NCBI GenBank assembly: GCA_947501845.1
Contig: CANMXP010000012.1
Location: 62,001-126,000, forward strand
Length of the DNA stretch: 64,000 bases
DNA from: an uncultured Flavobacteriaceae bacterium
GTDB taxonomy: Bacteria > Bacteroidota > Bacteroidia > Flavobacteriales > Flavobacteriaceae
Direction of reading: 5' to 3'
Shown piece after piece: positions 14,242-30,164 of this stretch; positions within the stretch are counted from its first letter, which is position 1; each line of letters begins with the position of its first letter. Under the pieces are notes generated by a model that ran no database searches, was not told the origin of the DNA, and saw nothing but the letters and a program-made list of their open reading frames with translations. The translations under genes and the position numbers were made by a program.

Positions 14242-14529
14242 TTATAGTGGCTGTGGCTTAAACAATTCAATGTTGCATTTACCATTGCCATCTTTGTCAT
14301 ATAATTGATGAGTAATAGGTCCTTGTTGAATTTCACAGAATCCAAGACCTTGATCTACAGTATCACATCTAACAGGCTCTACAAGTACACATGTATTCTC
14401 ATCAGGGTTTTGATACCATGCTTTTGTAACTATAGCATCGTCTTCTACAGATGTAAAGGCAAGCGAAGCTGTGATAGCTAACATTAAGGCAAAAGCTGGT
14501 AAAACGATTTTTAAAAAATTTGTTTTCAT
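14242..14529 (-). CDS. DUF6520-family small exported protein
   Basis: A 95-aa protein with a long signal peptide (LKIVLPAFALMLAITASLAF) typical of the DUF6520 family of Bacteroidota. The mature part has about 65 residues and four cysteines (TCVL, VRCD, GFCE, KCNIE) and begins WYQNPDENTC. Function is unknown. It is last in a three-gene operon after the 401-aa gene (36-bp gap). Its paralogue at 22278 shares the signal peptide and the W-[FY]-QNPDE-C start. Confidence 0.8.
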   Translation of the reverse strand: MKTNFLKIVLPAFALMLAITASLAFTSVEDDAIVTKAWYQNPDENTCVLVEPVRCDTVDQGLGFCEIQQGPITHQLYDKDGNGKCNIELFKPQPL

Positions 14530-14565
14530 AATATAGATATTTAAAAATTAATGACCTACTCTTTT

Positions 14566-15771: not shown

Positions 15772-16235
15772 GAGAGGGCATATTTTTGGGTGATGTAATC
15801 ATTATTATTTTGTCCATTTTTGATAAGGATGCCTACAGCAGCCAGAACAACAAAAGCGATATTAAAGATTAAATGCTCAGCCCAGCCCAGTTTTTCAATA
15901 ACACCACCGCAGGAGCAGGGAACATCATTACTAAAATTTAAAATGATAAAAATATAAGCAGTAAACATCACCATAAGATTAAAGGCAGCGAGCAACCCTA
16001 AAAGTTTAAATCGCGGAATGATTAAAAGTAAGGCGATCAAAATCTCAAGAAATGGTATCGCCCAGGCCACTATATTAACAAAAGGAGTGAGCATGGCAGA
16101 TTGCCCGATCTGGATTTTAAATTCATCGAAAACCAATAATTTACTCATTGCAGCATAAACAAATAAGAGTATATATAGGAAGCAAATAAATTCTAACAAG
16201 ATATTTTTATATTTACTATTAATTTTCATAACCAT
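15768..16235 (-). CDS. MauE/DoxX-like four-helix membrane protein
   Basis: A 155-aa protein with four predicted membrane helices (starting near residues 10, 48, 74 and 120). Between helices 3 and 4 it has the Cys pair of this redox-associated family (NDVPCSCGGVIEKLGW). MauE is needed for disulfide formation during methylamine dehydrogenase maturation, and relatives in Bacteroidota are thought to handle thiol redox in the envelope. It is first in an operon with the 401-aa and DUF6520 genes. The ATG at 16235 is used, with a second at 16229. It is probably controlled by the two-box promoter at 16264-16318. Confidence 0.8.
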   Translation of the reverse strand: MVMKINSKYKNILLEFICFLYILLFVYAAMSKLLVFDEFKIQIGQSAMLTPFVNIVAWAIPFLEILIALLLIIPRFKLLGLLAAFNLMVMFTAYIFIILNFSNDVPCSCGGVIEKLGWAEHLIFNIAFVVLAAVGILIKNGQNNNDYITQKYALS

Positions 16236-16263: not shown

Positions 16264-16318
16264 CAAAGGTGGGAGATAAAATTTATTTTAAATGGATAAA
16301 TAATTGTCTTAGAGGGAT
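16264..16318 (-). promoter_or_regulatory. Two-box activator site 1 with -7 element (MauE operon)
   Basis: On the + strand GGAT occurs at 16294 and again at 16315, exactly 21 bp apart, with TTGTCT between. CAAA at 16264-16267 ends 27 bp before the first box. Read leftward, the direction of the operon, this is CACCTTTG, a weak TAnnTTTG -7 element, 29 bp upstream of the ATG. There is no TTG at the -33 position, which suggests activator dependence. Confidence 0.6.
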
Positions 16319-16330
16319 TTTAGTGAGATT

Positions 16331-16399
16331 CAACTTTAAGCATGTCTCACGGACATGCTTAAAGTTGTAAGCCGAACTAATCCCGCTTTTGTGCGGGAT
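16331..16399. repeat. Two adjacent perfect hairpins
   Basis: CAACTTTAAGCATGTC with its exact inverse forms a 16-bp stem and 5-nt loop at 16331-16367. ATCCCGC with its inverse forms a second stem at 16380-16399. Both look like dispersed palindromic intergenic repeats. No gene lies between 16236 and 18498. Confidence 0.7.
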
Positions 16400-16691
16400 C
16401 TCATATTTGACCTGCCCTTGAAGAGTTTTTAGCATATATTTTAATAGAAAAGAATTCCTCAATATACTGGGTTGGGTTTTTTGTTAGACCTGCCAATATT
16501 GAGGCGTGACCATGATTTTTATAGGGAGATTTTAATTTTTAGCTCTAACATAAATTTATAATCTCTATAAACTCTCCTATCTTTAAAGGGGAGTGGTTCT
16601 ATTTCAGCATCTTGAATAGGAGACGAGGAGGTTCTTTCCTAAGTTGTTTATATCTTTCAATAATATATAAGTCATTAAGAATCGCGAAATA

Positions 16692-17060
16692 CGGTCGTTG
16701 AGCGAAGTCGAAACGCGGTATAATTATATAGCACCACTCTTGTATACAAATATATTATGAGATTTCTCACTTTGTTCGAAATGACAAATCGTTACTTTTT
16801 ATTTTTCTAAGTATGAAAGCAGAACATGCCTTAGTCTAAGAGTTATATTGAAAAGCGGTCGTTGAGCGAAGTCGAAACGCGGTATAATTATATAGCATCA
16901 CCCTTGTATACCAATATATTACGAGATTTCTCACTGCGTTCGAAATGACAAATCGTTACTTTTTATTTTTCTAAGTATGAAAATAGAACACGCCTTAGTC
17001 TAAGAGTTATATTGAAATGCGGTCGTTGAGCGAAGCCGAAATGTGGTCGTTGAGCATAGC
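16692..17060. repeat. Tandem 164-bp repeat, two copies plus a partial third
   Basis: Copies start at CGGTCGTTGAGCGAAGTCGA, at 16692 and 16856, and a third begins near 17021 but is cut off. Each contains a hairpin-forming GAGATTTCTCACT...TTCGAAATGACA segment and ends with CCTTAGTCTAAGAGTTATAT. A further copy lies at about 17926-18075, on the other side of the reverse-orientation long repeat, so the array seems to have been split by that insertion. Confidence 0.75.
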
Positions 17061-17289
17061 CGAAAGACTTCAAAATCCAAATTTTAATGGCATATTCAAC
17101 AACCAGCTCGTCCAACAGCTATAATGTATCCATAAATTAACAAACATTGATAATTATATGGCATGGTCGTAAAAAGAAATAAAAAAGTCTAAGCCTACAA
17201 GAATCCTATAGAAAATCCTATGGAGACCCCAACCACAGAAAAACAACTCACTTTAGACCCATTTGTTAGCCCATTCTTCTTCAGGCAGT

Positions 17290-17690
17290 CAGGTCACGCT
17301 GCTCGTTGCATGGGAAGGACTATTGGGGGCGTCCCCGACCTTTCGGAAGCATAAAGCACAAAAGCTTCGAAGTATAGGAGCATCAGTGCTGGGTGTTGGG
17401 GCTGGGCGACGCGAAGTTTTGTGCTTGGTTCTTCTCTGGTGGGAGCACAATGTCATTAAGTTAAGGAATTTTATTTTGTTTTGTCACATTGAGCGCAGTC
17501 GAAATGCTTTTAAAACTAAGACTTTATATAGTCTTCGACTGCGCTCTGACTGACATTTCACCCTTAACTTAATGGCATTGGGCGCGAGCATGAGAAGAAA
17601 TGCCTCTCGAAAGGGCGTCTTTTCTTTTGTTACTTTTCTTTGGACGAGCAAAGAAAAGCAAGCTCTAAAACTTGTTATAGATACCTGAAA
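17290..17690 (-). repeat. Reverse-complement copy of the 509-bp repeat from the window start
   Basis: This matches the coding-like part of the repeats at 201-2160 in reverse orientation. It includes the GGTCGGGGA-equivalent segment and the perfect TTACTTTTCTTTG hairpin near 17628. It carries the same nested 133-bp insertion as the copy at 1296. The open frame 17263-17553 within it reads only repeat sequence and I do not call it a gene. Confidence 0.85.
17448..17580. mobile_element. 133-bp MITE-like element, second copy
   Basis: The ends are CAATGTCATTAAGTTAAGG and CCTTAACTTAATGGCATTG, terminal inverted repeats matching at 18 of 19 positions. Flanks are GGTGGGAGCA (17438-17447) and GGCGCGAGCA (17581-17590). 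It has the same length and insertion point as the element at 1447, and shares the mismatched base in the target duplication. This implies one insertion event followed by copying of the whole host repeat. Confidence 0.8.
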
Positions 17691-17839
17691 AATATGGTAC
17701 ACTGTAGCTCTTTACACAGACAGGGTATTCTTTTTGCATGGTCGCAAAAAAGAACTCGCCTTAGGTCCATTGTGTGTTTGCTCATTACTTTTTTTGCTAT
17801 CGTATAGTTGAATCAAGATAAAATATCATAGAGTGAGGC

Positions 17840-17872
17840 AGACCTGACAGGTTTTAAAAACCTGTCAGGTCT
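17840..17872. repeat. Perfect 33-bp palindrome
   Basis: AGACCTGACAGGTTTT, one central A, then the exact inverse. A 16-bp stem with no loop to speak of is typical of dispersed palindromic repeats; I recall related ACCTGACAGGTTT palindromes in other Bacteroidota genomes. Confidence 0.8.
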
Positions 17873-17925
17873 CTCAATACAGATTATGTTAAATTATTAT
17901 TAGAAGCTATAGCTATCATTTCGAA

Positions 17926-18075
17926 TGCGGTAAGATATCGCATCACCCTTGTATACAAATATATTATGAGATTTCTCACTTTGTTCGAAATGACAAATCG
18001 TTACTTTTTGTTTTTCTAATTATGAAAGCAGAACATGCCTTAGTCTAAGAGTTATATTGAAATGTAGTCGAAACG
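17926..18075. repeat. Further copy of the 164-bp repeat
   Basis: It matches the 16692 and 16856 copies from the GCATCACCCTTGTATACAAA segment through CCTTAGTCTAAGAGTTATAT, with a few substitutions, and is followed by the start of another degenerate copy. No gene is visible between it and 18498. Confidence 0.7.
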
Positions 18076-18498
18076 AGGTGCAATTAAGATATCACACCAC
18101 CCCTACATAACTTATATTTTAGCTTGTCTTGAGCGTAGCCGAAAGGCTCAGTACAAGTCATTCGAGATAATAGGTCGTTGTTTTTCATGTAATCTGTACA
18201 AGCGAACTGTGACATGTCTAAACATATTTAAATAATTATAAATATTTATTTAATTGATAATAAGGTGTTTAAATGTTTTTTGTAAAAAACCACCCACCCG
18301 CTTTTGTGCTTTTGTTGTATTTACTTTGGAGTAGAATCCATTTTTTCATTTTTTATTGAAGCAAAATGAAGCTCCAATATAAATAGACCTCTTTTATTTC
18401 TCTTGACGTTGCTATAATATGTGAAGTGAAAAAGATAAAATTTAAGGATTTCGAGCAAAATAGACAGGGTTATTTTAAATCATAAAATTATAATCTGT

Positions 18499-18677
18499 AC
18501 GAATCATTCCAATAAATAAAGTCGCTCTCAAAATGATTAGCAAGTTGCTACTTAAGAATAAAAACTTTTACAATATAGAAAAATCCGATAGCTCCGATAA
18601 AAAATAAAAAAGCGCGGATGAGATTTTGTGCGTTAGATTGGGATGAAGTCTTTAAAAAGAAACTGATTGATAAATAA
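18499..18677 (+). pseudogene. Decayed fecR remnant upstream of the second susC
   Basis: The sequence aligns base by base with the start of the fecR at 2915. AATCATTCCAATAAA matches that gene's codons 2-6, and CTACTTAAGAATAAA followed by AATATAGAAAAATCC matches its codons for LIKNEALGDIDKS. The start codon has become ACG, a base is lost after the sixth codon, and TGA and TAA stops interrupt it. A last recognisable stretch, DWDEVFKKKLIDK then stop, corresponds to the DWKALERKI part. The membrane, FecR and DUF4974 domains are gone. The next intact gene is susC at 18870, matching the fecR-susC order of locus 1. Confidence 0.82.
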
Positions 18678-18869
18678 GTAAACCGTTTTTTGAGCTTGAA
18701 ACTTTTTAAAGGTTAAGTCAGATAGCAATTAGCTAATCATTTTGAGTATACTATTATAATGTAGATTCCTGAAAATAATGCATTCCTAAAAAGAAGGTGC
18801 ATAAATTTTTGAATTTTGGTAAGTAATTAACTGAAGCCCCCTAAAATAAATTAAAAATTTAATGAACCT

Positions 18870-21800
18870 ATGGCCCGTAAATCTAAGGAAATTGAATTAA
18901 GTAGTGTGCTTTTCAGTATAAAGAGAGGACTTATAAAACTCGTCATAAGAACCTTTATAGGCTTATTTTGTACTGCAATGCTCAGTTTTACAACAAAACA
19001 TACGATATCCAAAAATAATATCCTTTTTATAAAAAAGTTACCAGTACAAGAACTTAAAGTTTCAGGTACCGTTACAGATCAATTAGGACTTCCCATAGCT
19101 CATGTAACCGTTTTGATAAAAGGCACAAATAAAGGTAGGGTCACTAATTCAGATGGTCAGTATGCCATAACAGTATCAGGGCCTTCTCAAGAATTGGTCT
19201 TTTCGTCTATAGGTTTTGAAACACAAGAAATAAGAGTCGATAATCAAAGGACTATTAATATTGTCCTTAAAGAAAATATTGGTCAACTGGATGAAATAAC
19301 CATTGAAGCTGGCTATTATAAAACTTCCCAAAGATTGACTACAGGTAGCATTAGTAAACTAGAAGCAAAAACTGTAGAAAAACAACCTGTTAACAATCCG
19401 TTGGCTGCTATTCAAGGGCACTTGCCTGGTGTAAGTATTACCCAGAATACAGGTGTTCCTGGTGGGGATTACCATATTCGAATTCGAGGGCAAAACTTTA
19501 TAGGTCCTGGAGGACCTTTTGATGAGGTTAACAATCCGTTATACATAATAGATGGAGTACCTTACAATTCTGGATCGCTGGAATTGAGTTCCTTAACAGG
19601 TAATATTATTCCTAGCGGAAAGGTAAGTCCGTTAAATACTATAAACTCAGCAGATATAAAAAGTATCGAAGTGCTTAAGGATGCAGATGCTACGGCCATC
19701 TATGGATCTCGTGGTGCGAATGGTGTGGTGTTGATTACGACCAAGAAAGGCAGGGTAGGAAAAACACAGGTTAAGCTTAATGTAAGTAATACATTAAGTG
19801 AAGTTACTGGTTTTGTAGATCTATTGAATACGCAACAGTATTTAGAAATGCGTAGAGAAGCTATTAAAAATGAAGGACTCACACTTGAAACTATACCAAT
19901 TTCATCTCGATCGACCTTTCCCGATTTATATATTTGGAGTCAAGAACGGGATACAGATTGGCAAGAGGTGCTTATTGGGGGTACGGCCCATAGGCACCAT
20001 ACCCAACTGTCCTTTTCGGGAGGCGATGCCCAAACCCAATTTTTGTTAAGTGGAGGGTATTTAACAGAAACCACTGTGTTTCCCGGAGATTCGAAATATA
20101 ATAGAACGTCGGTACATGTTCATGTAAACCACCAGTCGGAGAACCATCGTTTTAAACTCAGTTTTTCTGGAAATTATGGGTCTGATCTAAATAATTTACC
20201 TCCTCAGGATTTTACAAAGGTAGCTGTAGTTTTATCACCAAACGCACCAGCACTTTACAATGATGCTGGTGATTTAAACTGGGAAAATTCTACTTGGAGA
20301 AACCCATTAGCTATATTGGAGCAGGATTACCTAGCAAGGACACATAGTTTTATTGTGAATACGGTATTATCTTATTACCCAATTCCAGCATTGGAATTTA
20401 AAACTAGCTTAGGTTATACAGATTACCGTTTAGAGTCTTATGCAACATTTCCGCATACCAGTTTTGATCCTAATACGACCTCTGGTCAAAATAGCAGTCG
20501 ATCTAGCATTAGCACCAATAATAGTACACGTGAGTCCTGGATTGTAGAGCCGCAGATTAATTGGAAGCACCATTGGGGAGCAGCCAGTTTGAAACTACTT
20601 TTAGGAACCACTTTTCAACAGGATAAGGATGAGCAATTGGGGATGTCTACATCAAATTTTCCTAGCAATGCCCTGTTGCATAATCTGGCAGCAGCGAAAG
20701 ATAAAATGATTATTCTTGATACAGGTACCGAGTATAAGTATCAGGCTGTTTTTGGCAGGATTAACTTTAATTGGAAAGATAAACTAATTCTAAACATAAC
20801 TGGACGTCGGGACGGTTCTTCCCGATTTGGACCAGGTAAGCAATTTGGTAAATTTGGAGCTATTGGGACGGCATGGCTGTTTTCTGAGGAAAATTTCTTT
20901 GAGAATCATTCGATTTTAAGTTTTGGGAAATTACGTGCCAGTTATGGTATAACAGGGAGTGATAAACCACCAGACTATGCTTTTTTGGATACTTATGAGG
21001 TTTCAGGGAACTATAATGGTTCGGGCTTGGCACCAACCCGCTTGTTTAATCCAGATCGAGCCTGGGAAGAAAATAAAAAACTGGAAACAGCTTTAGAGCT
21101 AGGCTTCTTTAAGTACCGTATATTTTTGTCGGCAATCTGGTATCGTAACCGTTCTTCCAATCAGCTGCTCCCTATTCCTTTGCCCGGTACTACGGGATTT
21201 TCTAGTATCAGTGCTAATTTAGATGCCATAATAGAAAATAGAGGTGTTGAGATCGATTTACGTACGGTAAATATTCAAAACGATGCTTTTAAATGGCGTA
21301 CCACTTTTAACATTTCAGCAAATAGAAACAGATTGGTAGTATTTCCAGAACTAGAAAAGTCTACTCTGGCCAATGAGTATTTGGTAGGAAAGTCTTTAGG
21401 GGTTAGGCAACTATATCACGTTTTGGGAGTCAATCCAGAAACAGGTGTATGGCAGTTTGAAGATTATAATAATGATGGCGCTATAGATAAAGATGATCGC
21501 CAATGGCTTGAGGATCTCACACCAAAGTATTTTGGAGGCCTGGGTAATACCTTGACTTATAAAAATATACAGCTGGAGGTATTTTTACAATTTACAAAAC
21601 AAAAAGGGAGAAGCTTTTTTCAATCAGGTGTACTTAATCTTGGAGGTATGGTCCAAAATATGCCTGCATCTATATTGGATCGTTGGCAGCAAATAGGTGA
21701 TGAAAATCCGATACAACGTTATTTCCTATCCGTCAATAATGACGCTACAATAGCATCGAACAGATATAGACATAGCAATGCATCTGTGACGGATGCTTCC

Positions 21801-21998
21801 TTTATTAGATTGCGAAATGTATCGTTAAGTTATACGATGCCTAAGACTATAACAAAGCATACAGATGTAAATGTCTATTTGCAAGGGCAGAACCTGTTCG
21901 TTATTACGGATTATGATGGGGCAGATCCAGAAGTGCAGAGTACATCGGTATTACCTCCATTACGGCAATTTACTTTAGGATTGAATATGACATTTTGA
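18870..21998 (+). CDS. SusC/RagA-family TonB-dependent transporter lacking the STN domain
   Basis: An outer-membrane transporter of 1042 aa, 72 shorter than its relative at 5888. The N-terminal membrane segment (RTFIGLFCTAMLSF) runs after ~20 residues straight into the CarboxypepD_reg-like domain (VSGTVTDQLGLPIAHVTVLI, near residue 64). The STN signalling domain present in the relative is missing. The plug carries the AIYGSRGANGVVLITTKKG signature and the barrel ends GLNMTF. Long segments are nearly identical to the first SusC. No susD follows, only 280 bp of gene-free DNA and a convergent DUF6520 gene. It may use another SusD, or be non-functional in uptake despite an intact frame. Confidence 0.93.
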   Translation: MARKSKEIELSSVLFSIKRGLIKLVIRTFIGLFCTAMLSFTTKHTISKNNILFIKKLPVQELKVSGTVTDQLGLPIAHVTVLIKGTNKGRVTNSDGQYAITVSGPSQELVFSSIGFETQEIRVDNQRTINIVLKENIGQLDEITIEAGYYKTSQRLTTGSISKLEAKTVEKQPVNNPLAAIQGHLPGVSITQNTGVPGGDYHIRIRGQNFIGPGGPFDEVNNPLYIIDGVPYNSGSLELSSLTGNIIPSGKVSPLNTINSADIKSIEVLKDADATAIYGSRGANGVVLITTKKGRVGKTQVKLNVSNTLSEVTGFVDLLNTQQYLEMRREAIKNEGLTLETIPISSRSTFPDLYIWSQERDTDWQEVLIGGTAHRHHTQLSFSGGDAQTQFLLSGGYLTETTVFPGDSKYNRTSVHVHVNHQSENHRFKLSFSGNYGSDLNNLPPQDFTKVAVVLSPNAPALYNDAGDLNWENSTWRNPLAILEQDYLARTHSFIVNTVLSYYPIPALEFKTSLGYTDYRLESYATFPHTSFDPNTTSGQNSSRSSISTNNSTRESWIVEPQINWKHHWGAASLKLLLGTTFQQDKDEQLGMSTSNFPSNALLHNLAAAKDKMIILDTGTEYKYQAVFGRINFNWKDKLILNITGRRDGSSRFGPGKQFGKFGAIGTAWLFSEENFFENHSILSFGKLRASYGITGSDKPPDYAFLDTYEVSGNYNGSGLAPTRLFNPDRAWEENKKLETALELGFFKYRIFLSAIWYRNRSSNQLLPIPLPGTTGFSSISANLDAIIENRGVEIDLRTVNIQNDAFKWRTTFNISANRNRLVVFPELEKSTLANEYLVGKSLGVRQLYHVLGVNPETGVWQFEDYNNDGAIDKDDRQWLEDLTPKYFGGLGNTLTYKNIQLEVFLQFTKQKGRSFFQSGVLNLGGMVQNMPASILDRWQQIGDENPIQRYFLSVNNDATIASNRYRHSNASVTDASFIRLRNVSLSYTMPKTITKHTDVNVYLQGQNLFVITDYDGADPEVQSTSVLPPLRQFTLGLNMTF

Positions 21999-22083
21999 TA
22001 TAGGGAGTCTTGTTAATTCGGAGATATTGAATGTTTTGATTTGTTATGTACTTTCAATGAAATTTTCATTTTAGTAATACTTA

Positions 22084-22130
22084 AGATAAACTTTGGCAAG
22101 AATCCATAAAATCCCAACTAAAGTTTATCT
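22084..22130 (+). terminator. Inverted repeat downstream of the second susC
   Basis: AGATAAACTTT at 22084-22094 and its inverse at 22120-22130 could form an 11-bp stem with a 25-nt loop. No T-run follows, so this is a weak terminator candidate. I see nothing else in 21999-22277. Confidence 0.3.
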
Positions 22131-22277
22131 CAGAACATTATACAGGTTGAAGTTGATGTATTATTTAATTTAGATATTATTTTATTGAAATTTAAATGCT
22201 TACAGTAATTGATGCAAGTTCAATAAATTAATACAAGAAACCAAAATGAGTAGCTTTTCCTCTAGTCCTCTTCAAAA

Positions 22278-22577
22278 CTAATCTAAACCTTCATACAAAA
22301 GAACATTACATGGAGATATACTGTTCAGTTTTTGATATACTTGATGAATGCTAAAACCTACTACAATAGTACATACAGGGTTGTATGAAGACGTACAATC
22401 ACAGTTAATTGGAGATGCTATTGTACAACTAAGTTCATCAGGGTTTTGGAACCACCCGGAAGTAACCACAATATCATCTGCCATATTGTTCCCGTTAGGA
22501 GCAAAAGCAAGTGAAGCAGTGATAGCCAGTATCAATGCAAAAGCTGGTAAAACGATTTTAAAAAATGTTGTTTTCAT
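22278..22577 (-). CDS. DUF6520-family small exported protein, second copy
   Basis: A 99-aa protein with nearly the same signal peptide as the protein at 14242 (FKIVLPAFALILAITASLAF). The mature part starts GWFQNPDELSC and has five cysteines (SC, NC, DC, VC, PC) in about 65 residues. It stands alone, convergent with the second susC, and its upstream region carries two-box site 2. Function is unknown. The repeated pairing of a SusC locus with a DUF6520 gene suggests a linked role or joint duplication. Confidence 0.78.
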   Translation of the reverse strand: MKTTFFKIVLPAFALILAITASLAFAPNGNNMADDIVVTSGWFQNPDELSCTIASPINCDCTSSYNPVCTIVVGFSIHQVYQKLNSISPCNVLLYEGLD

Positions 22578-22658
22578 AATATAAATATTTAAAAGTTAAT
22601 AAATCATGTATACTTGAATTTAAATTACTGATAATCAATGGTTAACAATTGTTTTAAT

Positions 22659-22713
22659 GCATATTACTCATTAAAACTTATTTTTAAAGGATAAATACTT
22701 GTCTTAGACGGAT
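22659..22713 (-). promoter_or_regulatory. Two-box activator site 2 (second DUF6520 gene)
   Basis: GGAT at 22689 and 22710, 21 bp apart, with CTTGTCT between. At the expected -7 position the leftward strand reads TAATATGC, only a partial match to TAnnTTTG, but the spacing is the same as at the other sites. It lies 82-136 bp upstream of the gene start. The rest of 22714-23159 shows no gene. Confidence 0.5.
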
Positions 22714-23159
22714 TTGTTAGTGAGGATTAGCATTTTGCGTGTCTATAAGATATACTTTGACTACGCACCACAGTACAAGAGTTTAGTATGATATGTGACA
22801 CAAAATAGGTATTCATTAGATTTTAAGCCTATTATTAAAATCTGTAGAATAATAAATAAAGATCTTTATGTGATTTCTCCTGTTGTCGAAATGACTTGAA
22901 AAGATAAATTTATGTATTTTGAGTTGTGTTGAATTGAGTTACGGTTGGGGTTTCACATGATTTTGGCATTTCAATGTATGATATGACATTTCATTTATTC
23001 GAATCGTACTATTAAATTATAGTTAGCTCGAGTAAAGTGCTATCAGTATTTTTAATATTATGAGTTACAATATTTCAAGCTAACTATAAGCAAAGTCTCT
23101 GTTCTTTATTCTAGTAGGAAAGCGGTCTTAATTCTTTTAGCTACAAGTAATCTAGAAGA

Positions 23160-23231
23160 AAAAACCAGAGCGCACTTTTTTTGTTGTGAAAAGGATTCTA
23201 AAAACTTAAAAAGATTTTGCTCTGGTTTTTT
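23160..23231. terminator. Long-loop terminator-like inverted repeat
   Basis: AAAACCAGAGC at 23161-23171 and GCTCTGGTTTT at 23219-23229 form a perfect 11-bp stem flanked by A- and T-runs on both sides. It lies just beyond the stop of the 206-aa gene (-). The loop of about 47 nt is long for a simple terminator. Confidence 0.55.
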
Positions 23232-23267
23232 GGGGATCTGTTTATGGTAGTAAACCCTTATTTCTTA

Positions 23268-23888
23268 CTATAAAGTAATAAGAGGTAGATGGTCCAATTT
23301 GGATAAGGATTCACTTGATTTTATCTGTTTAATAAGATCGGCTCTGTCTATACCAAAGGCACTGGATAAATAATGAAGCTTTGTTTTTTTTCCTTTTGAA
23401 TCATCAGAAGTTGTAAAAAAGCAATGCCAATGCTCGCCACAATCGATAATTTTGGCAACCGATTTAAAATCTTTCTTAGAGAATTCGGAGATGTATTGGC
23501 TTAATGTATATCCAAATTCGTGATAAGCAGTAAAAATAAAAGATGTTAAAGTTTCCAGTGAAAGAAAGAACCCATCAAGTAATTTTTCTTGATCCTTTTT
23601 CTTATTGGTTTTTAAAAGTTGCATTAAATTATTTGGGGTTTTTATTTTTTGAAAATCACTTTTTAGTTTTAACCAATGTAAATGAGCACTTTTAAATATT
23701 TCACTGCTCGTAGCAGTAAGTTCCTTTTCACCAGTCACTTCTTCTTTAGGAACACCGTTTAAAATCATTTGTTTTACAATAATGTCACTGCCGTATTGCT
23801 TGATAGGGTTTTTCTTTTCAAATTCGCTATCATCAAAAGCTATGAGTTTCTTATTGGTCTTCTTATGTGTAAATATGCGGTGTAACAT
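23268..23888 (-). CDS. Hypothetical protein, 206 aa
   Basis: I do not recognise this protein. It is lysine-rich and soluble, with no signal peptide or membrane helix. Visible features are an N-terminal FTHKKTNKKLIAFDD, a central helical section (FFLSLETLTSFIFTAYHEFG) and a section with aromatic, Cys and His residues (IIDCGEHWHCFF). The ATG at 23888 has a two-box promoter (site 3) 30-84 bp upstream, and a terminator-like repeat follows the stop, so it looks like a one-gene transcription unit that belongs to the local regulon. Confidence 0.65.
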   Translation of the reverse strand: MLHRIFTHKKTNKKLIAFDDSEFEKKNPIKQYGSDIIVKQMILNGVPKEEVTGEKELTATSSEIFKSAHLHWLKLKSDFQKIKTPNNLMQLLKTNKKKDQEKLLDGFFLSLETLTSFIFTAYHEFGYTLSQYISEFSKKDFKSVAKIIDCGEHWHCFFTTSDDSKGKKTKLHYLSSAFGIDRADLIKQIKSSESLSKLDHLPLITL

Positions 23889-23917
23889 TGTTTTTTTTGA
23901 TTGCGGGTGACTTTATA

Positions 23918-23972
23918 CAAAAGTCGAAAATTAAACTTATTCTAAAAGGATAATAAATTACCTGAGAGGGAT
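23918..23972 (-). promoter_or_regulatory. Two-box activator site 3 (206-aa gene)
   Basis: GGAT at 23948 and 23969, 21 bp apart. CAAA at 23918-23921 gives GACTTTTG on the leftward strand as the -7 element, 27 bp from the nearer box as at site 1. It is 30 bp upstream of the gene's ATG. Confidence 0.6.
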
Positions 23973-24087
23973 TTGTTAGTCCATACTTAACACGTGGTAT
24001 AAAAACTTGATTTTATTAAGTTTGTAGGACGCATTAAAAATTGCAATTCGAGCCCATACTAAACGTTCCTATGTTGAGTTTCTTGAA

Positions 24088-24147
24088 CTAAATTTTGGAT
24101 AAATGTTTCAGTATTTTATCTAAAGGAATCTCAGGTTTAATTTTCAT
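24088..24147 (-). CDS. Possible 19-aa small ORF after two-box site 4
   Basis: An ATG followed by 18 sense codons encodes MKIKPEIPLDKILKHLSKI, amphipathic and lysine-rich. It lies about 120 bp downstream (leftward) of the site 4 promoter, after an inverted repeat (CTAGGTAGT / ACTACCTAG). No homologue is known to me and an ORF this short can arise by chance, so this is a weak call. Confidence 0.2.
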   Translation of the reverse strand: MKIKPEIPLDKILKHLSKI

Positions 24148-24266
24148 TATAATTTATATTTTAGTTAAAACTAGGTAGTCTCATTTAAAAAGCGATTTTT
24201 AGAACAACTCAAATTAGCACTACCTAGCTTAAGGGGGATAATTATTAAGCGAATTTAAATCGATTA

Positions 24267-24321
24267 CAAATGTAGATGATGGAATTTAGCTGATAAGGAA
24301 TAAAAATTACCTGAGAGGGAT
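24267..24321 (-). promoter_or_regulatory. Two-box activator site 4, no annotated target
   Basis: GGAA at 24297 and GGAT at 24318, 21 bp apart, with ATTACCT between as at site 3. CAAA at 24267-24270 keeps the 27-bp spacing. The nearest leftward gene is the 206-aa gene, about 380 bp away and with its own site. Confidence 0.5.
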
Positions 24322-24475
24322 TAATTCTACCTAAAATCTAAAGAATATATAATTTGTTTGTGCTGATTATGTGTTTTTTGAATAATTTATAGTTTTATTT
24401 CTGCTGAGTTTGTTGAAGCGAAAACCGAATTAAATCAGTAGATTTTATTAAAAGGAAGGCCATTCCAAGATTAAT

Positions 24476-24605
24476 TTCAGTTACGCTCAATCACCTAAAT
24501 CCCTATAAAAAAGATGGTCGTGCGCAACCGAAATTAGATATCAGACAACGCAAATATCGATGATAAGATTTAACTAAAAAGGATTAAGACTTATCTAAAA
24601 AGGAT
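24476..24605 (-). promoter_or_regulatory. Promoter-hairpin repeat with two-box site 5
   Basis: GGAT at 24581 and 24602 (21 bp apart) and CAAATATC at 24551, giving GATATTTG leftward. Directly downstream of this promoter is a stem-loop with arms at 24516-24532 and 24476-24492 (TTCGGTTGCGC and its near inverse). The whole ~130-bp unit recurs at 24698-24836 and 27904-28045. No gene follows it leftward before site 4. A short structured RNA is possible. Confidence 0.5.
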
Positions 24606-24697
24606 GACTTGTCAATTTGGCTTAGTGCTAGGTGTTAAAAATGTTAGGTATTGTTGGTGAGTGTGTTATATCTGATTGAGGACCGTTAATTTTTTGT

Positions 24698-24836
24698 TTC
24701 GGCTACGCTCAATCTGAAGAATCCAACGAAATGGTGATTGGGCGCAACCGAAGTCAAAAAGACAAAAATTACTAACCGCAACAAATATCGATGATAAGAT
24801 TTAATTTAAATGGATTAAAACTTATCTGTAAGGGAT
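24698..24836 (-). promoter_or_regulatory. Promoter-hairpin repeat with two-box site 6
   Basis: GGAT at 24812 and 24833 (21 bp apart), CAAATATC at 24782 with 27-bp spacing, and a 17-bp stem with arms 24736-24752 and 24698-24714 (two G-T pairs, one mismatch) about 30 nt into the presumed transcript. No open frame follows. The unit closely matches 24476-24605. The interval 23973-24964 holds no recognisable gene other than these repeats. Confidence 0.5.
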
Positions 24837-24964
24837 TTTGCGCAATTATACTGGTTTTAACCAAATAAAAATTCCTCGGTGATTTGCTTCTAAGCCATCA
24901 TTACGACTGCTGTTTCCGCTTTAGTAACGAATTAATTTCTGTAAAAGCAGAAATTTAAATACCT

Positions 24965-27628
24965 CTAAAAATTATTAAACTTCCAACTAAAGCTTAGCAT
25001 AAAGTATTGCTTAAGCACTTTGTTTTGAGAATCTTGAATGTAGTTTTTTGTGGCAATACGTCTAACGTTTGTATTTTGGTTCAATAAATCGTAAACCTTT
25101 AAAGATAAAATACCATGGTCTTTAAATATCGTATAGGCTAAAGTTGTGTTCCAAAACCAGGCACTTTTTTGAAAACCTTCTGCAACGTTTGGGTTATAAT
25201 TAAAACTAATATCGTGTCGCCATTCTAATTGTTTAGGAACAAATGTTGTTATTTGTAGCCCAGCAGAATGATTAATAAATTCTTGGTCTTCAAAATCGTT
25301 CAAATCAAAAGTGGTTTTATTAATTGATAATCTGTAATTTGGTACGACCATCATAACCTGATCCCAAGCAAATGTGATACCAATATGAGGTGTTAACGAG
25401 ATATTGTTTGAAACATATTGAACGTCATTATTAAAGTTAACCGATCTATTAATACCTGTGGATAGACCAGCATGGTATTTAATTGTTTTTAAGGAGTCTA
25501 TTTTTATAGTTTTATTATAACTGCCACCAGCGTTTAAGCTATAGCCTCCATTTACATTGTCATAGCTGGTGTTTCTTACAAAATTATCATCAATGGTTGT
25601 TTTGGTCACCACTTGATTGTTGTTTAAATTGGCATAAATATGCCCAAAGAACCCATGGCGTTTTTGAAAATTGAATGTATTATACCCAAAATAAAAACTA
25701 TGCGTGTTTGCAGGTTTTAGATTAGGATTTCCGGTTACTGTATTTAAAGGATTTGAGATGTCTTGAAAGGGCTGTAGTTGTGATAGTTGTGGGGGAATAT
25801 TATCTAGGCCATAACTGGCATATACATACGATTTTGGATTGAATTGATAATGAAAATTCGATCGCAGCTCTACAGTTTCAAAATGACGTGCCAAACTTAG
25901 ATCTGGCCTCAAAAAATCACTATTTTTTAAGGCTCTAAAGACATACCCCATTTCGGAGCTAACAGACCATTTCTCTTTCTTATATGTTAGTTTCAAAGCT
26001 GGAGTACTTCTTGTATTTGTATACTTAAAATCTGTACTCAAGTCTTCATTAAATATGGTGAAATCTTGAGTGCTTGTATCAAAAGTATAAGTACTCTTTA
26101 TATTTTCCTGTTTGTCATGTCTGTAATTAAACTTAAGATCTAAAAACAAGCCCTTCGCTATTAATGGCCATCTGAGGGATATATTGGTATAAAAACCTTT
26201 AGATTTCTGGTCGCTATCAGTAAATAAATTTCTATTAATTTCTTCTGGATTGTCTCCAAAAATATTGGTTTCAGAATTTAAAAAATTATTGGCTTCTATG
26301 GTTTCGTACTTATTAGACATGTTAAATTTTAAATATGCTCCATGTATACCTAATCGTTTTGTGACATCTAAATAGTTGTTAAAATTTTTATTTGTTGTTT
26401 CTGCAAATGAAGACAAACTGGATTGATTTGTCAGGACATTTTCTTCACTTCTGGAAGTTTCACTTCCTAAGGTTTCTATTTTATTTTTAGAAATGTTAAA
26501 TGCTGGGTTAATATTGATTAAGAGCGTAGAATCGATTTCGATATTAAACCCTAAACGAACATTGTGATTTTCACCCTCGTTATGCGATTTTGTGTTGGAG
26601 TTACTTGTGTATCTCGAATCTGGAAGAATATTGATTTGTTGTGTAGTACGTTCATTTTCTGAACGCGTTCCAGAGAAAAAATAATTGGCAGAAATATCAT
26701 GTTTTTTTCTCAATTTATCAATGTAATTCGAACCATAATTGCGAGATATAGTAATTCCTTGCCCACTTGTAAGGCCACTTCTAAAACTAAATCCAGGTGA
26801 ATTTATATTGTTACCTCCGGCAAGAAGGCTAATACGTTGACTATTGTTGAAGAGGTTATACATCCCAGCAAACTCATAACGTTTGTTAGTACCTGTGCCA
26901 GCTGCAACCTGCCCAAAAGCACCATCGTTGTTTTCTTCTTTTATAACGAGATTGATCGTTTTTTTTTCTTTACTGCCTTCATCACCAGCAAAAGCTTCTG
27001 CTTTGGTTTTTGTATCCGTGATTTGGATGTTATCAATGATTTCTTTTTTTAAATATCTTGTCGTTATAGTTGGGTCATTGCTAAAAAATGGTTTTCCATT
27101 TACCAAAATATTGTCTACTTCTTTTCCGTTTATAGTTATTTTGCCAGTATCATTAACTTCTACTCCTGGTAATTGTTTTAATAAATCTTCAACATTGGCA
27201 TCTTTTTTAGTTTTAAAAGAAGTAGCATTAAACTTTAAGGTATCTTTTTTTATAACGACAGGAGGACTAACCTTTATAAGGACTTCCTCTAAAGCACTAA
27301 GGTCTGTTTTTAGATTAATAATGTTTAGGTCGATGGTTTCCTTGTCTAAATGAATAGCTTGAAAGTGGGGCTGATACCCAATATAGGAAATATAAAGATT
27401 TAAACGTTTATCTGCTGTTTTGCCTTCTAAAGAAAAATAGCCATTTTTATCTGAAATGGTATAAGTAATCAAAGAGCTATCCTTAACACGTTCTAAATGA
27501 ATAGTTGCTGCCTCTAAAGCTGTTTTCTCGGCTTCTGTTATTAAAGTTCCAGAGATTTTAAAAGGCTTCGTTTGTGAGAAAGATACCGTTATGCAGAGTA
27601 TTGTATATACAAAAAAACAATATTTCAC
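24965..27628 (-). CDS. TonB-dependent receptor-like outer-membrane beta-barrel protein
   Basis: An 887-aa outer-membrane protein of the OMP_b-brl_3 type. The start is GTG, opening a signal peptide (VYTILCITVSFSQ). Residues ~22-110 are a CarboxypepD_reg-like domain (KISGTLITEAE; DKNGYFSLEG). A plug-like domain follows (DLLKQLPGVEVNDTGKITI; ILVNGKPFF), then a ~600-residue barrel ending in an aromatic strand (FMLSFSWKFNNF). It is not a SusC: it lacks the SusC signature and has no SusD neighbour. Its substrate is unknown. The leader of ~360 nt carries promoter-hairpin unit 7. Confidence 0.88.
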   Translation of the reverse strand: MKYCFFVYTILCITVSFSQTKPFKISGTLITEAEKTALEAATIHLERVKDSSLITYTISDKNGYFSLEGKTADKRLNLYISYIGYQPHFQAIHLDKETIDLNIINLKTDLSALEEVLIKVSPPVVIKKDTLKFNATSFKTKKDANVEDLLKQLPGVEVNDTGKITINGKEVDNILVNGKPFFSNDPTITTRYLKKEIIDNIQITDTKTKAEAFAGDEGSKEKKTINLVIKEENNDGAFGQVAAGTGTNKRYEFAGMYNLFNNSQRISLLAGGNNINSPGFSFRSGLTSGQGITISRNYGSNYIDKLRKKHDISANYFFSGTRSENERTTQQINILPDSRYTSNSNTKSHNEGENHNVRLGFNIEIDSTLLININPAFNISKNKIETLGSETSRSEENVLTNQSSLSSFAETTNKNFNNYLDVTKRLGIHGAYLKFNMSNKYETIEANNFLNSETNIFGDNPEEINRNLFTDSDQKSKGFYTNISLRWPLIAKGLFLDLKFNYRHDKQENIKSTYTFDTSTQDFTIFNEDLSTDFKYTNTRSTPALKLTYKKEKWSVSSEMGYVFRALKNSDFLRPDLSLARHFETVELRSNFHYQFNPKSYVYASYGLDNIPPQLSQLQPFQDISNPLNTVTGNPNLKPANTHSFYFGYNTFNFQKRHGFFGHIYANLNNNQVVTKTTIDDNFVRNTSYDNVNGGYSLNAGGSYNKTIKIDSLKTIKYHAGLSTGINRSVNFNNDVQYVSNNISLTPHIGITFAWDQVMMVVPNYRLSINKTTFDLNDFEDQEFINHSAGLQITTFVPKQLEWRHDISFNYNPNVAEGFQKSAWFWNTTLAYTIFKDHGILSLKVYDLLNQNTNVRRIATKNYIQDSQNKVLKQYFMLSFSWKFNNF

Positions 27629-27903
27629 ACGTTTAAATTTTAATTACCTGCCTATGAACTAATATTAAAATATGGAATCTATATGTACATAGTGTCTTCA
27701 CATGGAGCATTTTAAATACTAATAAAAATAAATGTCTCTTTATTGTTATGGAGGCATTAGCTACGTATCCTTTAATATGAACATTATTTTGAACCTTACT
27801 GTAGGTTCTTAAAGCGGGTGTCTTTTTGTTAATACACAATAATATAGTTGTCAATGGGTACTATTGACTTATTATTCAGTCTTTAAAATTTTGTCCTTTT
27901 CAA

Positions 27904-28045
27904 TTCCAGCTACACTCAATCCCTAAAATCCCAATAAAGATGATTGGGCGCAACCGAATTTGAAAAGACAACTAACTAACAACTATAGAGCAAATATCGA
28001 GGATAAAACTTAACTTAAATGGATTAAAACTTGTCTGAAAAGGAT
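27904..28045 (-). promoter_or_regulatory. Promoter-hairpin repeat with two-box site 7 (TonB-type gene)
   Basis: GGAT at 28021 and 28042 (21 bp apart) and CAAATATC at 27991, 27 bp from the nearer box, giving GATATTTG leftward. The stem-loop has arms at 27942-27958 and 27904-27921. It lies about 280-420 bp upstream of the TonB-type gene's GTG and about 130 bp beyond the stop of the AraC gene. The interval between it and the GTG has an open frame on the same strand (27633-27854) with no recognisable domain, which I do not call. Confidence 0.55.
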
Positions 28046-28178
28046 GTTGTGTTTAATGAATACACATAAATACCAGAAAACAGGTGCGTAATAGAACATA
28101 TAAGTATTGACTGCTACCAAAAGTGCTTAGTACATAATACTTAATACTTGGTCCCCAGTACTAAAGTTGATGCTTGTT

Positions 28179-29165
28179 CTAAATTTCTGGGTTTTGATTG
28201 GATTGTTTTCTTAAATCCCTTGGGGTAAATCCATATTTTTCCTTAAAAGCTTTAGAGAAATGAGGTGCGCTTATAAAACCAGTTACGTGTGCTACTTCTT
28301 TTATGGATGTATCTGTATGCTGAATTAAAACACTAGCTTTTCTCAACCTTTCATTTATTAAAAAACGAAACACGGTTTGGCCATACAGTTGTTTGAAACC
28401 ATATTTTAGTTTATACTCATTAGTTCCAAAAGTATGTGCCAATTCAATCAATGGGGCAAGCGGTTTGTCTAAATTATTTATAATATGATCATGTACTTTT
28501 CGGATTTTTCTAATATCGGTAAAGCTTAAATTGAGCTGTTTGCTTTTATTACTGTCTTGAGGGGTCTTTGCTGTTTTGTTTTTTCCAGTATTTACAATTT
28601 TTCGTAATTCAATTTCCCTTTCTGTGCTGTTTTTAATAATTTCTATGGATGTAATCACAATTCTTTCTGATTGATTGGCTCGATCGACAAATTTGCTAAC
28701 CAAACAATTGGATGTTAAAATTAACTGTTGTTTGGTTTTAAAAGATAACACGATAAATTCTTCATGAGCATCAAGATTAGTGCGCATTAACTTAGATTTT
28801 AAACCATTCCAAGCTAATTTTGAGTCCTGAGTTAAAAATGTAGAAAAATCTTTTTCTTGTAACTCATTATCATCAAAGAATAACATCTGTTTAATGCGGG
28901 TATTAAAAGCTATAATAGTGTCTTCTGTGTCCAGAACAAAGAACATTTGAACCAGATGTTTGTAGGTTTCATTTAGGTTCGCATAGCCTTGATGGAGAAA
29001 AGAAGTTCTTATTTCTTCAAAGGTCATGTTAACCAGTGCAGTGAGTGCTTCAATATCATCGTCCAAATCGGATCTTTCAATCTTGTATGCAAAATTACCG
29101 CTGGCAAACTCCATAAGCATCGTGTGGATTTGTTTTATTCTTTGTTTATTGTTTAGTTTCATCAC
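28179..29165 (-). CDS. AraC-family regulator with PAS-like sensor region
   Basis: A 328-aa cytoplasmic transcription factor. Residues 1-75 are helical and HAMP-like (LMEFASGNFAYKIERSDLDD), residues ~76-170 resemble a PAS domain (MFFVLDTEDTIIAFNTRIKQ), and the last ~100 residues are the double helix-turn-helix AraC domain (LAPLIELAHTFGTNEYKLK; RLRKASVLIQHTDTSIKEVA; ending YGFTPRDLRKQ). There is no membrane helix, so the sensed signal would be internal. It follows the DUF7793 gene by about 120 bp, probably as an operon. AraC proteins bind direct repeats about two helical turns apart, which is exactly the pattern repeated at eight nearby sites, so it is my candidate regulator for them. Confidence 0.88.
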   Translation of the reverse strand: MMKLNNKQRIKQIHTMLMEFASGNFAYKIERSDLDDDIEALTALVNMTFEEIRTSFLHQGYANLNETYKHLVQMFFVLDTEDTIIAFNTRIKQMLFFDDNELQEKDFSTFLTQDSKLAWNGLKSKLMRTNLDAHEEFIVLSFKTKQQLILTSNCLVSKFVDRANQSERIVITSIEIIKNSTEREIELRKIVNTGKNKTAKTPQDSNKSKQLNLSFTDIRKIRKVHDHIINNLDKPLAPLIELAHTFGTNEYKLKYGFKQLYGQTVFRFLINERLRKASVLIQHTDTSIKEVAHVTGFISAPHFSKAFKEKYGFTPRDLRKQSNQNPEI

Positions 29166-29284
29166 GTAGAAAAGCTAGTTTGTAGATTTATTTATTGTTC
29201 AAGAAATTTATACTGATTTTAAACAGGAAAAATAAAAGGCTATTTTATATTAAAAGCAGAAGCGTGCAAAAGTTTCATAACGAA

Positions 29285-29665
29285 CTATTTAGAGATATAA
29301 CTATTTAGAAAACTTAAGGCATCCTCTTCTTTGATAAATATCTGGGTCGTGATTGCTGGATTACTGGTTTTAACATAAAAACCAGATATCGTATTGGTTA
29401 ATGGATTGTTGACCAACAAAGCAACAGCTTTAATTAGGGCAGAACCTTCTATTGCTAAGTAGTTTCTTGCACTTTTATTGACGCTTTTAACGCCTCTCAT
29501 GTCACAAAAGATTAGAAATTCTCTACCTTGCTGTAATAAAAGTCTATCTTCAACAACTCTCATAGCAACAGATTGATCTATAGAAATTCCGTTTTTGTAA
29601 ACAAAATAAAGAATGTCTTTTTCAATCCAGAACTTCGCATACTCGTTTTCTATATGATCTATCAA
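29285..29665 (-). CDS. STAS-like DUF7793-family protein
   Basis: A 126-aa soluble protein with an alternating beta-alpha pattern resembling SpoIIAA/STAS folds: KFWIEKDILYFVYK, EFLIFCDMRGVKSVNKSARN, and a C-terminal helix (FIKEEDALSFLNSYI). I assign it to the DUF7793 family from memory. The only plausible start is TTG at 29665, because an in-frame stop lies two codons upstream and the next Met is residue 29. The gene precedes the AraC regulator, suggesting the two act together, for example with this protein modulating the regulator; this is inference. Confidence 0.75.
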   Translation of the reverse strand: MIDHIENEYAKFWIEKDILYFVYKNGISIDQSVAMRVVEDRLLLQQGREFLIFCDMRGVKSVNKSARNYLAIEGSALIKAVALLVNNPLTNTISGFYVKTSNPAITTQIFIKEEDALSFLNSYISK

Positions 29666-30039
29666 AATATTTTAAGATTTTTGGGGTTAAAAGATTTCAT
29701 ACTTAATTAAATTTAAATACGTGTTTTTACAATTATTATCTGTATTAATTTATCTTAAGAGAGAAAATGTTCTTTATAATAATGTTCTTTATGATTTTGA
29801 ACAAATCAAAACAAATAAACATAGGGCAAAACAAATATAATTACAATTATTTTAACTTAACTGAGGTAAAACCGTACTTTTAACTTTTTAGGGATAATTT
29901 TAATACCAATTGTGTTTTGCTCTTTTGTGCTCAATTAAAAAGATGTTTTTTTTAATTCCGTGAAGTATCAATTACCTGTTTTTAAGTGTTTTAGTGTTTT
30001 TTTTGTTTGTATTATAACGCTGGAATATATTAGTTTGTT

Positions 30040-30085
30040 TGTTTAAAACTTGTCTTAAAAGGATAAAAACTTATCTGTAAGGGAT
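30040..30085 (-). promoter_or_regulatory. Two-box site 8 with a degenerate third box
   Basis: GGAT at 30061 and 30082 (21 bp apart) with CTTATCT between, and a third ACTTGTCT 21 bp further left at 30048, where the GGAT part is degraded. No CAAA is found at the usual distance, unlike the other sites. It lies between the divergent DUF7793-AraC operon (396 bp to the TTG) and the fused synthase gene (~155 bp to the ATG), so it could act on either. The rest of 29666-30237 shows no gene. Confidence 0.5.
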
Positions 30086-30164
30086 TTTTTACCTAATACT
30101 TACGGGAATAATAAAATTAGGCTATAAATTTTTATAGTTTTATACGTTCTATGACTACAATGAG

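Follow-up and report, generated by a model that had tools for sequence, protein, structure and literature searches.

The window analysed here (a stretch of 64,000 nucleotides from a marine bacterium) appears to hold a regulon in which a PAS-AraC regulator, acting on tandem sites, activates protein genes together with a row of hairpin-RNA units, a reading to which we give a probability of roughly 85%. It is built around eight 42-bp sites, all on the minus strand, as are the genes and units discussed with them. In the orientation of the genes, the eight sites share the 21-bp unit ATCCnTTnnAGAYAAnTnTTA in two successive copies, and it is the whole unit that repeats within each site, not the four-base boxes alone. 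The eight GGA[TA]-N17-GGAT pairs listed in the initial annotation were all recovered at their coordinates on one strand. A 39-column weight matrix, whose training sets included the eight sites, scores them at 35.8-48.3; the next best position in the 64-kb window reaches 12.3, and none of 20 mononucleotide shuffles exceeds 13.3.

A search of the 5.37-Mb draft genome with a 25-letter consensus, also drawn from the eight sites, returned seven exact matches, 7/7 at the locus; the eighth site differs by one mismatch, and a ninth match, with two mismatches, overlaps site 8. Since the eight sites went into both matrix and consensus, the decisive comparison is with the rest of the sequence and with a reversed pattern: elsewhere in the genome the consensus has 15 matches (one with one mismatch, 14 with two), and the reversed control pattern has 18 matches in total. 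Exact matches are confined to the locus, far above chance, in agreement with the local regulon proposed at the outset. The sequence of the sites, their conservation, their spacing and their exclusivity within the genome are directly established.

Site 8 (30045..30086; score 48.3) lies upstream of the genes for the DUF7793 protein (29285..29665) and the AraC-type regulator (28179..29165), where it is presumed to be autoregulatory. Site 7 (28005..28046; 42.2), with GATATTTG at +6, is the predicted promoter of hairpin A1 (27880..27994) and of the gene for an 887-aa outer membrane beta-barrel protein (24965..27628; OMP_b-brl_3 and a CarboxypepD_reg-like domain). Sites 6 (24796..24837; 42.6), 5 (24565..24606; 40.2) and 4 (24281..24322; 35.8; -7 box TACATTTG) are the predicted promoters of hairpin RNA A2 (24665..24785), hairpin RNA A3 (24440..24554) and RNA B (24150..24270), respectively. 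Site 3 (23932..23973; 38.5) is the predicted promoter of a gene for a 206-aa protein (23268..23888) that matched no family in Pfam, NCBIfam or PHROGs, and site 2 (22673..22714; 36.6) lies upstream of a DUF6520 gene (22278..22577; PF20130, 3.7e-12) encoding a small protein with a signal-peptide-like start and five Cys. Site 1 (16278..16319; 37.2) is the predicted promoter of a presumed operon (14242..16235) of MauE (15768-16235; PF07291, 3.5e-31), a 401-aa protein in second place (14566-15771) and a further DUF6520 protein (14242-14529; match at 4e-11). A parallel for MauE in the TMcin preprint (PMC13252029) was dropped, as the section in question describes a DsbA-family enzyme. The literature search, made within one library, returned no paper on DUF6520 or DUF7793. 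Activation of genes for membrane and secreted proteins is the apparent role of some of the sites. The claim that the sites precede genes stands for the others, but those at 24297, 24581 and 24812 precede predicted hairpin-RNA units without an open frame of at least 55 aa.

The regulator consists of N-terminal helices, a PAS-like domain and a C-terminal AraC double-HTH DNA-binding domain, as seen in its structural model. Its membership of the AraC/XylS family is indicated by a Pfam match to HTH_18 (1.2e-18) and by Foldseek matches to the AraC DNA-binding domains 3oio and 3w6v. The DUF7793 gene is its conserved upstream partner, and the DUF7793 protein (PF25056, 6.6e-45) has a SpoIIAA/STAS-like fold with Foldseek matches to SpoIIAA-like proteins. 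Among the 20 proteins scanned with Pfam (11 of the window, nine of relatives), the other regulator-type genes were RteC and an HTH_17 gene, beyond the divergent PLP gene.

The adjoining PAS-AraC protein is very probably the binder of the eight sites, as judged from how the sites are distributed among its relatives. At 79 named loci of such relatives across the Flavobacteriaceae, mostly about 40% identical to the regulator, the same tandem repeat stands before DUF7793 in 66/79 and after AraC in 53/79. Shuffled sequences gave the repeat in 0/395 upstream and 0/395 downstream cases, and eight other repeat spacings were found at no more than 3/79 loci. A period test that uses no motif was likewise won by period 21, with 47.6/79 upstream (next best 4.2) and 21.0/79 downstream (next best 5.6). 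At 16 loci from other genera a site scoring at least 15 is present before DUF7793 in 16/16 and between AraC and MauE in 15/16. At the threshold no site was found in 13/79 upstream and 26/79 downstream searches; some of the site-less loci are rearranged or duplicated, and the Sinomicrobium oceani locus L143 and the paralogues L146 and L185 have no site.

The two sites of a locus also drift jointly: an upstream and a downstream site match at 23.6 of 34 columns when both belong to one genome and at 20.6 when they do not, a difference reached by 0/20000 permutations in a test that ignores descent. In genomes with the regulator the motif is present in 18/35, against 6/264 of those without it (Fisher 1.3e-14, overlap counted by hand), an association that is partly built in, as some of these genomes supplied the regulator-linked sites from which the pattern was made. 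Presence of the motif goes with presence of the gene, and the proposal of the AraC gene at 28179 as binder is upheld by the repeats beside its relatives in many genera, the joint drift and the co-occurrence. In a separate comparison of regulator residues with motif positions, residue 302 of the second HTH and position 6 of unit 2 gave the strongest covariation (z 5.9), and residues 242, 214, 263, 306 and others covary with the CAA/CCA position of the motif; confounded by clades, this covariation is suggestive only.

These results also bear on the alternative raised in the initial annotation, in which a LytTR-type response regulator encoded elsewhere would bind the boxes spaced at 21 bp and the AraC gene would be a passenger. 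LytTR regulators such as AgrA likewise use direct repeats, placed about two turns apart (a 21-bp period), and the genome holds 22 LytTR matches. Yet the window contains none of them: the single match on its contig is about 75 kb from the nearest site. The motif tracks the AraC gene from genus to genus and in its presence or absence per genome. Each unit, moreover, is wider than that of LytTR regulators, and its two boxes, which span about 17 bp, are what the pair of HTH motifs in an AraC domain would lead one to expect. We consider the LytTR alternative very improbable.

The geometry of the sites is that of AraC/XylS activators with tandem repeats, namely two repeats in the same direction 21 bp apart, the proximal one over the -35/-33 region at a fixed distance from the -10/-7 box. 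Within the window, a -7 TTTG stands at +10 after the repeat in six of the eight sites, at the offset first reported, with a poor, degenerate box at 22689 (site 2) and none at 30061 (site 8). Across the relatives, the TTT of the -7 box is found at +10 after the 42-bp repeat in 58/69 of the downstream, MauE-side sites. No TTG is present at -33, as had been claimed, because the second unit occupies the -33 region. The site before DUF7793 belongs to a different promoter geometry from the target sites: outside Flavivirga it often lies 42-44 bp further up, with TAnnTTTG at +48 to +50 in 25/84 upstream sites, and site 8 of the window has no -7 box at +48.

Activator dependence, as suggested earlier, would fit both the fixed -7 distance and the position of the proximal repeat over -33. 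The same overlap with the -33 region could be expected of a repressor that blocks it, but there is no -33 TTG to block, and the exact -7 distance in 58/69 sites, like the shift of the own-operon site in many other genera by roughly a whole number of turns, fits contact with the polymerase. Repression is in our estimate improbable. We posit instead that a cytosolic PAS-AraC regulator, encoded beside the SpoIIAA/STAS-like DUF7793 protein, would occupy one face of the DNA as neighbouring monomers on the two tandem 21-bp units. With the proximal unit over -33 and the -7 box at a fixed distance, it would replace the missing -33 contact at target promoters and recruit RNA polymerase (class-II-like activation). 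In many other genera the 42-bp site of its own operon is displaced upstream by a further 42-44 bp and may serve class-I-like autoregulation. The ancestral pair of sites would be those before DUF7793 and before MauE-DUF6520, with an expansion in Flavivirga to about eight sites, through which the outer membrane protein gene, the 206-aa gene and the row of hairpin-RNA units may each have been added with a site of their own. Binding and activation, as well as transcription and action of the RNAs, are what we infer from the sequences.

Behind the sites at 24297, 24581 and 24812 there is no open frame of at least 55 aa, and conserved hairpin-RNA units are found on their 3' side. The site at 28021 is followed by a fourth unit, A1, which model R1 detected in the leader that precedes the gene for the 887-aa outer membrane protein; the A1 hairpin is common to A2 and A3 (class A). 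Searches of Flavivirga genomes, limited to scoring of each genome's top 150 first-look candidates, gave 33 strong matches to the class A model in 9/10 genomes and eight matches to the class B model in 8/10, all at the locus. Thirty of the 33 class A loci were examined, and in 30/30 the match is preceded by a site at a distance of 42, 52 or 57 nt; the four class A matches outside the training set also follow a site. Scores of class A are 68-119 bits on the strand of the site and at most 44.3 on the opposite strand, and one G-U pair is invariant in 32/32 hairpins, which together indicate the transcribed strand. Pairing in class A is conserved in 98.3% of cells, a value reached by 16/500 shuffles, and the covariation measures are not above shuffles for class A (200-226 of 500) or class B (104-225 of 500). 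Neither Rfam at gathering scores nor a tRNA search gave a match in the 64-kb window.

A protein-coding reading of the units was set aside, since no ATG-ORF is conserved (the longest have 0-38 aa in class A, where some frames are open without ATG, and 0-7 aa in class B). The combination of a conserved promoter with a conserved structured unit that has no conserved ORF is that of small RNAs. It points to two RNA families, newly described here, as predicted members of the regulon, and the three tandem sites seem to drive small hairpin RNAs arranged in a row, whose transcription we propose from the promoter pattern.

The units might instead be what remains, promoter and 5' UTR, of the leaders of outer-membrane-protein gene copies since lost, or a read-through leader of the 206-aa gene. 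Such an origin would fit A1, which shares its hairpin with A2 and A3 and belongs to the leader of the 887-aa gene, as well as class A hairpins in which no T-run or terminator was seen. Similarity among A2 copies is 0.89 for pairs from one genome (n=7) and 0.81 for pairs from different genomes (n=113), a difference that would also follow from local duplication. A2 and A3 are, however, conserved islands across nine and eight genomes, respectively, with identity at background soon after the hairpin, which is unexpected of leftovers, and at the end of RNA B a hairpin (CTAGGTAGT...ACTACCTAG) with TTTT after it resembles a terminator. We regard an origin as leaders as unlikely, though worth keeping in mind. 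Dispersed REP-like repeats placed here by accident are the least probable source: the 3' arm GAGCGTAGCCGAAA resembles REP-like fragments elsewhere in the window, but strand-specific scores and the invariant G-U pair speak against them, and the many copies expected of such repeats were not seen in the whole-genome model searches, where strong matches (among the best 150 candidates per genome) occurred at the locus only. If the units are small RNAs, they could possibly be decoys or pairing partners that tune the outer-membrane-protein mRNA with which they share the element, forming a feed-forward loop of activator, mRNA and sponge array, a role that we put forward tentatively.

The gap between the XylS repeats gives a 21-bp period, and AraC activates from I1-I2. 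The likeness of both XylS/Pm and AraC I1-I2 to the present system lies in an AraC-type double HTH and two-box direct repeats. For XylS, two homologous 15-bp direct repeats, each with box A and box B, are described in a passage of PMC5481539, and the title of a work cited there has activator and polymerase sites overlapping at Pm. In contrast to both, the boxes here are different (ATCC / AGAYAA), the promoter is a Bacteroidota -7 promoter without a -33 element, and the regulator has a PAS-like input domain, a partner gene of the STAS-like type and, as its apparent targets, a row of hairpin-RNA units. Sets of the Qrr and RsmY/Z type comprise several paralogous RNAs under one regulator, as predicted here; unlike those, the predicted RNAs of this locus stand in tandem, are apparently driven by an AraC-type protein and have their hairpin in common with a target mRNA, where it is part of the leader.

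The host phylum has unusual promoters, and to our knowledge few activator sites have been mapped in it. The repeat would provide a family-wide, directly testable operator for the uncharacterised PAS-AraC/DUF7793 regulator pair. In many genera the motif has drifted along with the protein, and the pair may therefore offer natural variants for reading how AraC-type proteins recognize DNA.

The eight spaced box pairs described in the initial annotation (16294 to 30061) were recovered by a sequence check at the coordinates claimed, all on a single strand. In gene direction each site consists of two head-to-tail copies of a 21-bp unit, ATCCnTTnnAGAYAAnTnTTA. With a weight matrix whose training sets include these eight sites, they score 35.8-48.3, against 12.3 for the runner-up in the window and 13.3 for the top of 20 mononucleotide shuffles. 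The genome-wide search that had been proposed was performed with a 25-letter consensus and gave seven exact matches in the 5.37-Mb draft genome, every one within the locus and none outside it; the eighth site carries one mismatch, and another match with two mismatches overlaps site 8. The 15 matches elsewhere in this genome, of which 14 have two mismatches and one has a single mismatch, amount to background, since the reversed control pattern yields 18 in total.

Homologues of the proposed binder, a PAS-AraC protein encoded at 28179..29165 on the minus strand, were found (E <= 1e-20) in 35 of 299 Flavobacteriaceae genomes, its own genome counted. Sixteen of these homologue loci, all from other genera, were inspected at 18-19 kb and share the order divergent PLP-GNAT gene (15/16), site, DUF7793, AraC, site, MauE and usually DUF6520 (14/16 by BLAST clustering), with SusC/SusD converging on the row. 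A site scoring at least 15 precedes DUF7793 in all 16 and lies between AraC and MauE in 15; the best score in that interval of the remaining locus, L060, is 7.4. The 21 DUF6520 proteins listed contain 2-5 Cys. Many of the 16 loci have a module resembling a mobile element behind the PLP-GNAT gene, made up of RteC, an HTH_17 gene and a DnaC-like loader (L066:12738-18980 and equivalents; L066 is the one locus for which the families were tested).

Named genomes, some of them also in the 299-genome set, were scanned as well, with the analysis restricted to the best 79 of 367 candidate loci, the closest being from Flavivirga. Here the orthologous promoters, whose comparison had been suggested at the outset, carry the site before DUF7793 (upstream) in 66/79 and after AraC (downstream) in 53/79, compared with 0/395 shuffles at either position and at most 3/79 for eight alternative spacings. 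With 25 loci from further genomes added, the counts are 90/104 and 69/104, same-genome repeats being possible. A motif-free self-similarity measure over shifts of 12-32 bp also favours 21 bp, which wins 47.6/79 upstream and 21.0/79 downstream (ties shared; runner-up shifts 4.2 and 5.6).

Of the 35 genomes in the 299-genome set that encode the regulator, 18 contain the exact motif; of the 264 that lack it, 6 do (Fisher 1.3e-14, overlap counted by hand). This association is partly built in because the pattern derives from regulator-linked sites of some of the same genomes; the reversed pattern gives a single match in each of two genomes. The initial annotation had named a LytTR-type protein as an alternative binder, and this speaks against it: the window holds no LytTR match, though its genome has 22. 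In favour of the PAS-AraC protein as binder, the paired sites of a genome drift together. In 75 loci with both sites passing thresholds, the two sites of one genome agree at 23.6 of 34 columns versus 20.6 between genomes, which none of 20000 permutations matched (the permutation ignores descent). Muricauda, Allomuricauda and Flagellimonas loci have ACTCCGTTT...TCAAG at both sites, L050 has the first unit AATACCGCTGGGATAAGT in both, with poor second units, and one large genus has units resembling CCCGAATTG or CCTGATTTG. Most regulators have Y at residue 255, which lies in the first HTH. Where this residue is K, R or Q, 6/10 upstream sites have CCA for CAA (C at unit-1 position 14), compared with 0/63 for Y255; the four without CCA are L164, L125, L126 and L048. 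A covariation scan of 91 regulators (50 clusters) ranked residue 302 of the second HTH with unit-2 position 6 highest. Clade structure prevents a firm claim on such residue-motif pairs.

The predicted regulator model (mean pLDDT 77.9) comprises N-terminal helices (residues 6-62) of possibly HAMP-like appearance, a PAS-like domain (66-180) and an AraC domain (215-324), in an arrangement that is uncertain given a pTM of 0.39. The best Foldseek matches include PAS domains and the DNA-binding domains of AraC proteins, the first row being a meaningless alignment (TM 0.21). The model of the upstream partner DUF7793 (pLDDT 86.9, pTM 0.83) is similar to SpoIIAA/STAS proteins, with 2q3l (E 6.2e-6) as the best match.

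At downstream sites, the TTT of the -7 box, given as TAnnTTTG for flavobacteria in PMC9723704, begins +10 past the 42-bp repeat in 58/69; upstream sites lack this peak (6/90). With Flavivirga, Croceivirga and near kin (L116-L126) left out, 25 of 84 upstream loci have TAnnTTTG at +48 to +50, and the other 59 have no exact match there. This position is 42-44 bp farther than the downstream +6, about four helical turns, an offset that would keep the site on the same face of the DNA relative to polymerase. The -7 element at fixed offset, as initially claimed, holds for six of the eight window sites, is degenerate at 22689 (the L118 counterpart has CACCTTTA) and is missing at 30061. In 36 of 63 MauE-side leaders outside L116-L126, the start region is covered by an inverted repeat, CATATC-N~10-GATATG, whose 3' arm contains the likely ATG start (e.g. 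L129, L133 and L136, just 3' of AraC).

Four sites are followed by hairpin units. Class A, with consensus CGGTTGCGCC...GAGCGTAGCCG, comprises three subtypes, A2, A3 and A1, behind sites 24812, 24581 and 28021, with A1 in the leader of an 887-aa outer membrane protein gene; class B, behind 24297, reads CT[AG]GGTAGT...CTACC[CT]AG, then TTTT. Thirteen loci gave 34 class A units (from 12) and six class B units (from 6), of which 32 and 6 were aligned, two Croceivirga units being omitted. Each unit is a conserved island (one unit per genome; 9, 8, 8 and 6 genomes), with mean pairwise identity per 20 columns of 0.27-0.52 before the site, 0.63-0.97 from site through hairpin and 0.15-0.56 after. Folding z-scores are -2.7 to -4.8 in the eight units tested, and pairing is retained in 98.3% of alignment cells for class A and 94.7% for class B. 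Since covariation in both alignments showed no excess over shuffles, the proposed structure rests on conservation and folding. An invariant G-U pair (32/32) and a U-G pair in 25/32 class A units favour the site strand as the one transcribed. In Flavivirga jejuensis (L122:13564-14886) the array is rearranged, as four A units and the AraC gene are on opposite strands. The gene-poor stretch 16700-18200 of the window holds several REP-like fragments of TTTCGNCTNCGCTCAA type, similar to the hairpin A 3' arm.

Searches of ten Flavivirga and Croceivirga genomes, scoring the best 150 first-look candidates per genome, gave 33 strong hits (E <= 1e-8) to the class A model R1 in nine, all in the AraC locus. 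Croceivirga G667 had none, a divergent hairpin being nonetheless visible. Nineteen weaker hits (E 4e-4 to 0.1) comprise 13 on the opposite strand of known units and six elsewhere. The class B model R2 hit once per genome in eight of the ten. In 199 family genomes searched under stricter filters (18 scored), R1 hits were confined to G000, G019 and a single weak place (E 6e-5) that has no site. A site lies 42, 52 or 57 nt ahead of the R1 hit in 30/30 class A loci examined (of 33). As most of these loci had entered training through their sites (score threshold 24), it is the four hits outside training that provide a fair check; their sites score 41.7, 22.2, 20.3 and 40.9, and the two that fall below that threshold still exceed the shuffle maximum (13.3).

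The sister genome G248, a single contig, has four additional exact matches outside the locus (L195-L198). By eye from translation, these precede a second DUF6520-like and MauE-like pair, a SusC-like gene, a regulator that combines TPR-like and HTH-like parts (~0.4 kb away) and a phosphate-transporter-like gene (~0.5 kb away). In the same genome (L057:2211-5198) DUF7793 and the AraC gene are each duplicated in tandem.

Literature searches found no paper on DUF6520 or DUF7793, none on MauE with Flavobacteriaceae, and no matching system among the papers listed, nor in excerpts of PMC5481539, PMC9723704 and PMC13252029. We take the PAS-AraC protein to be a putative activator whose ancestral regulon had two sites and comprised MauE together with small exported proteins that carry Cys residues (DUF6520); in Flavivirga we take this regulon to have been enlarged to about eight local sites, hairpin-RNA units included. 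Because the candidate RNAs and the outer-membrane-protein leader have a common hairpin, a model is invited in which these RNAs may act as decoys for that leader.
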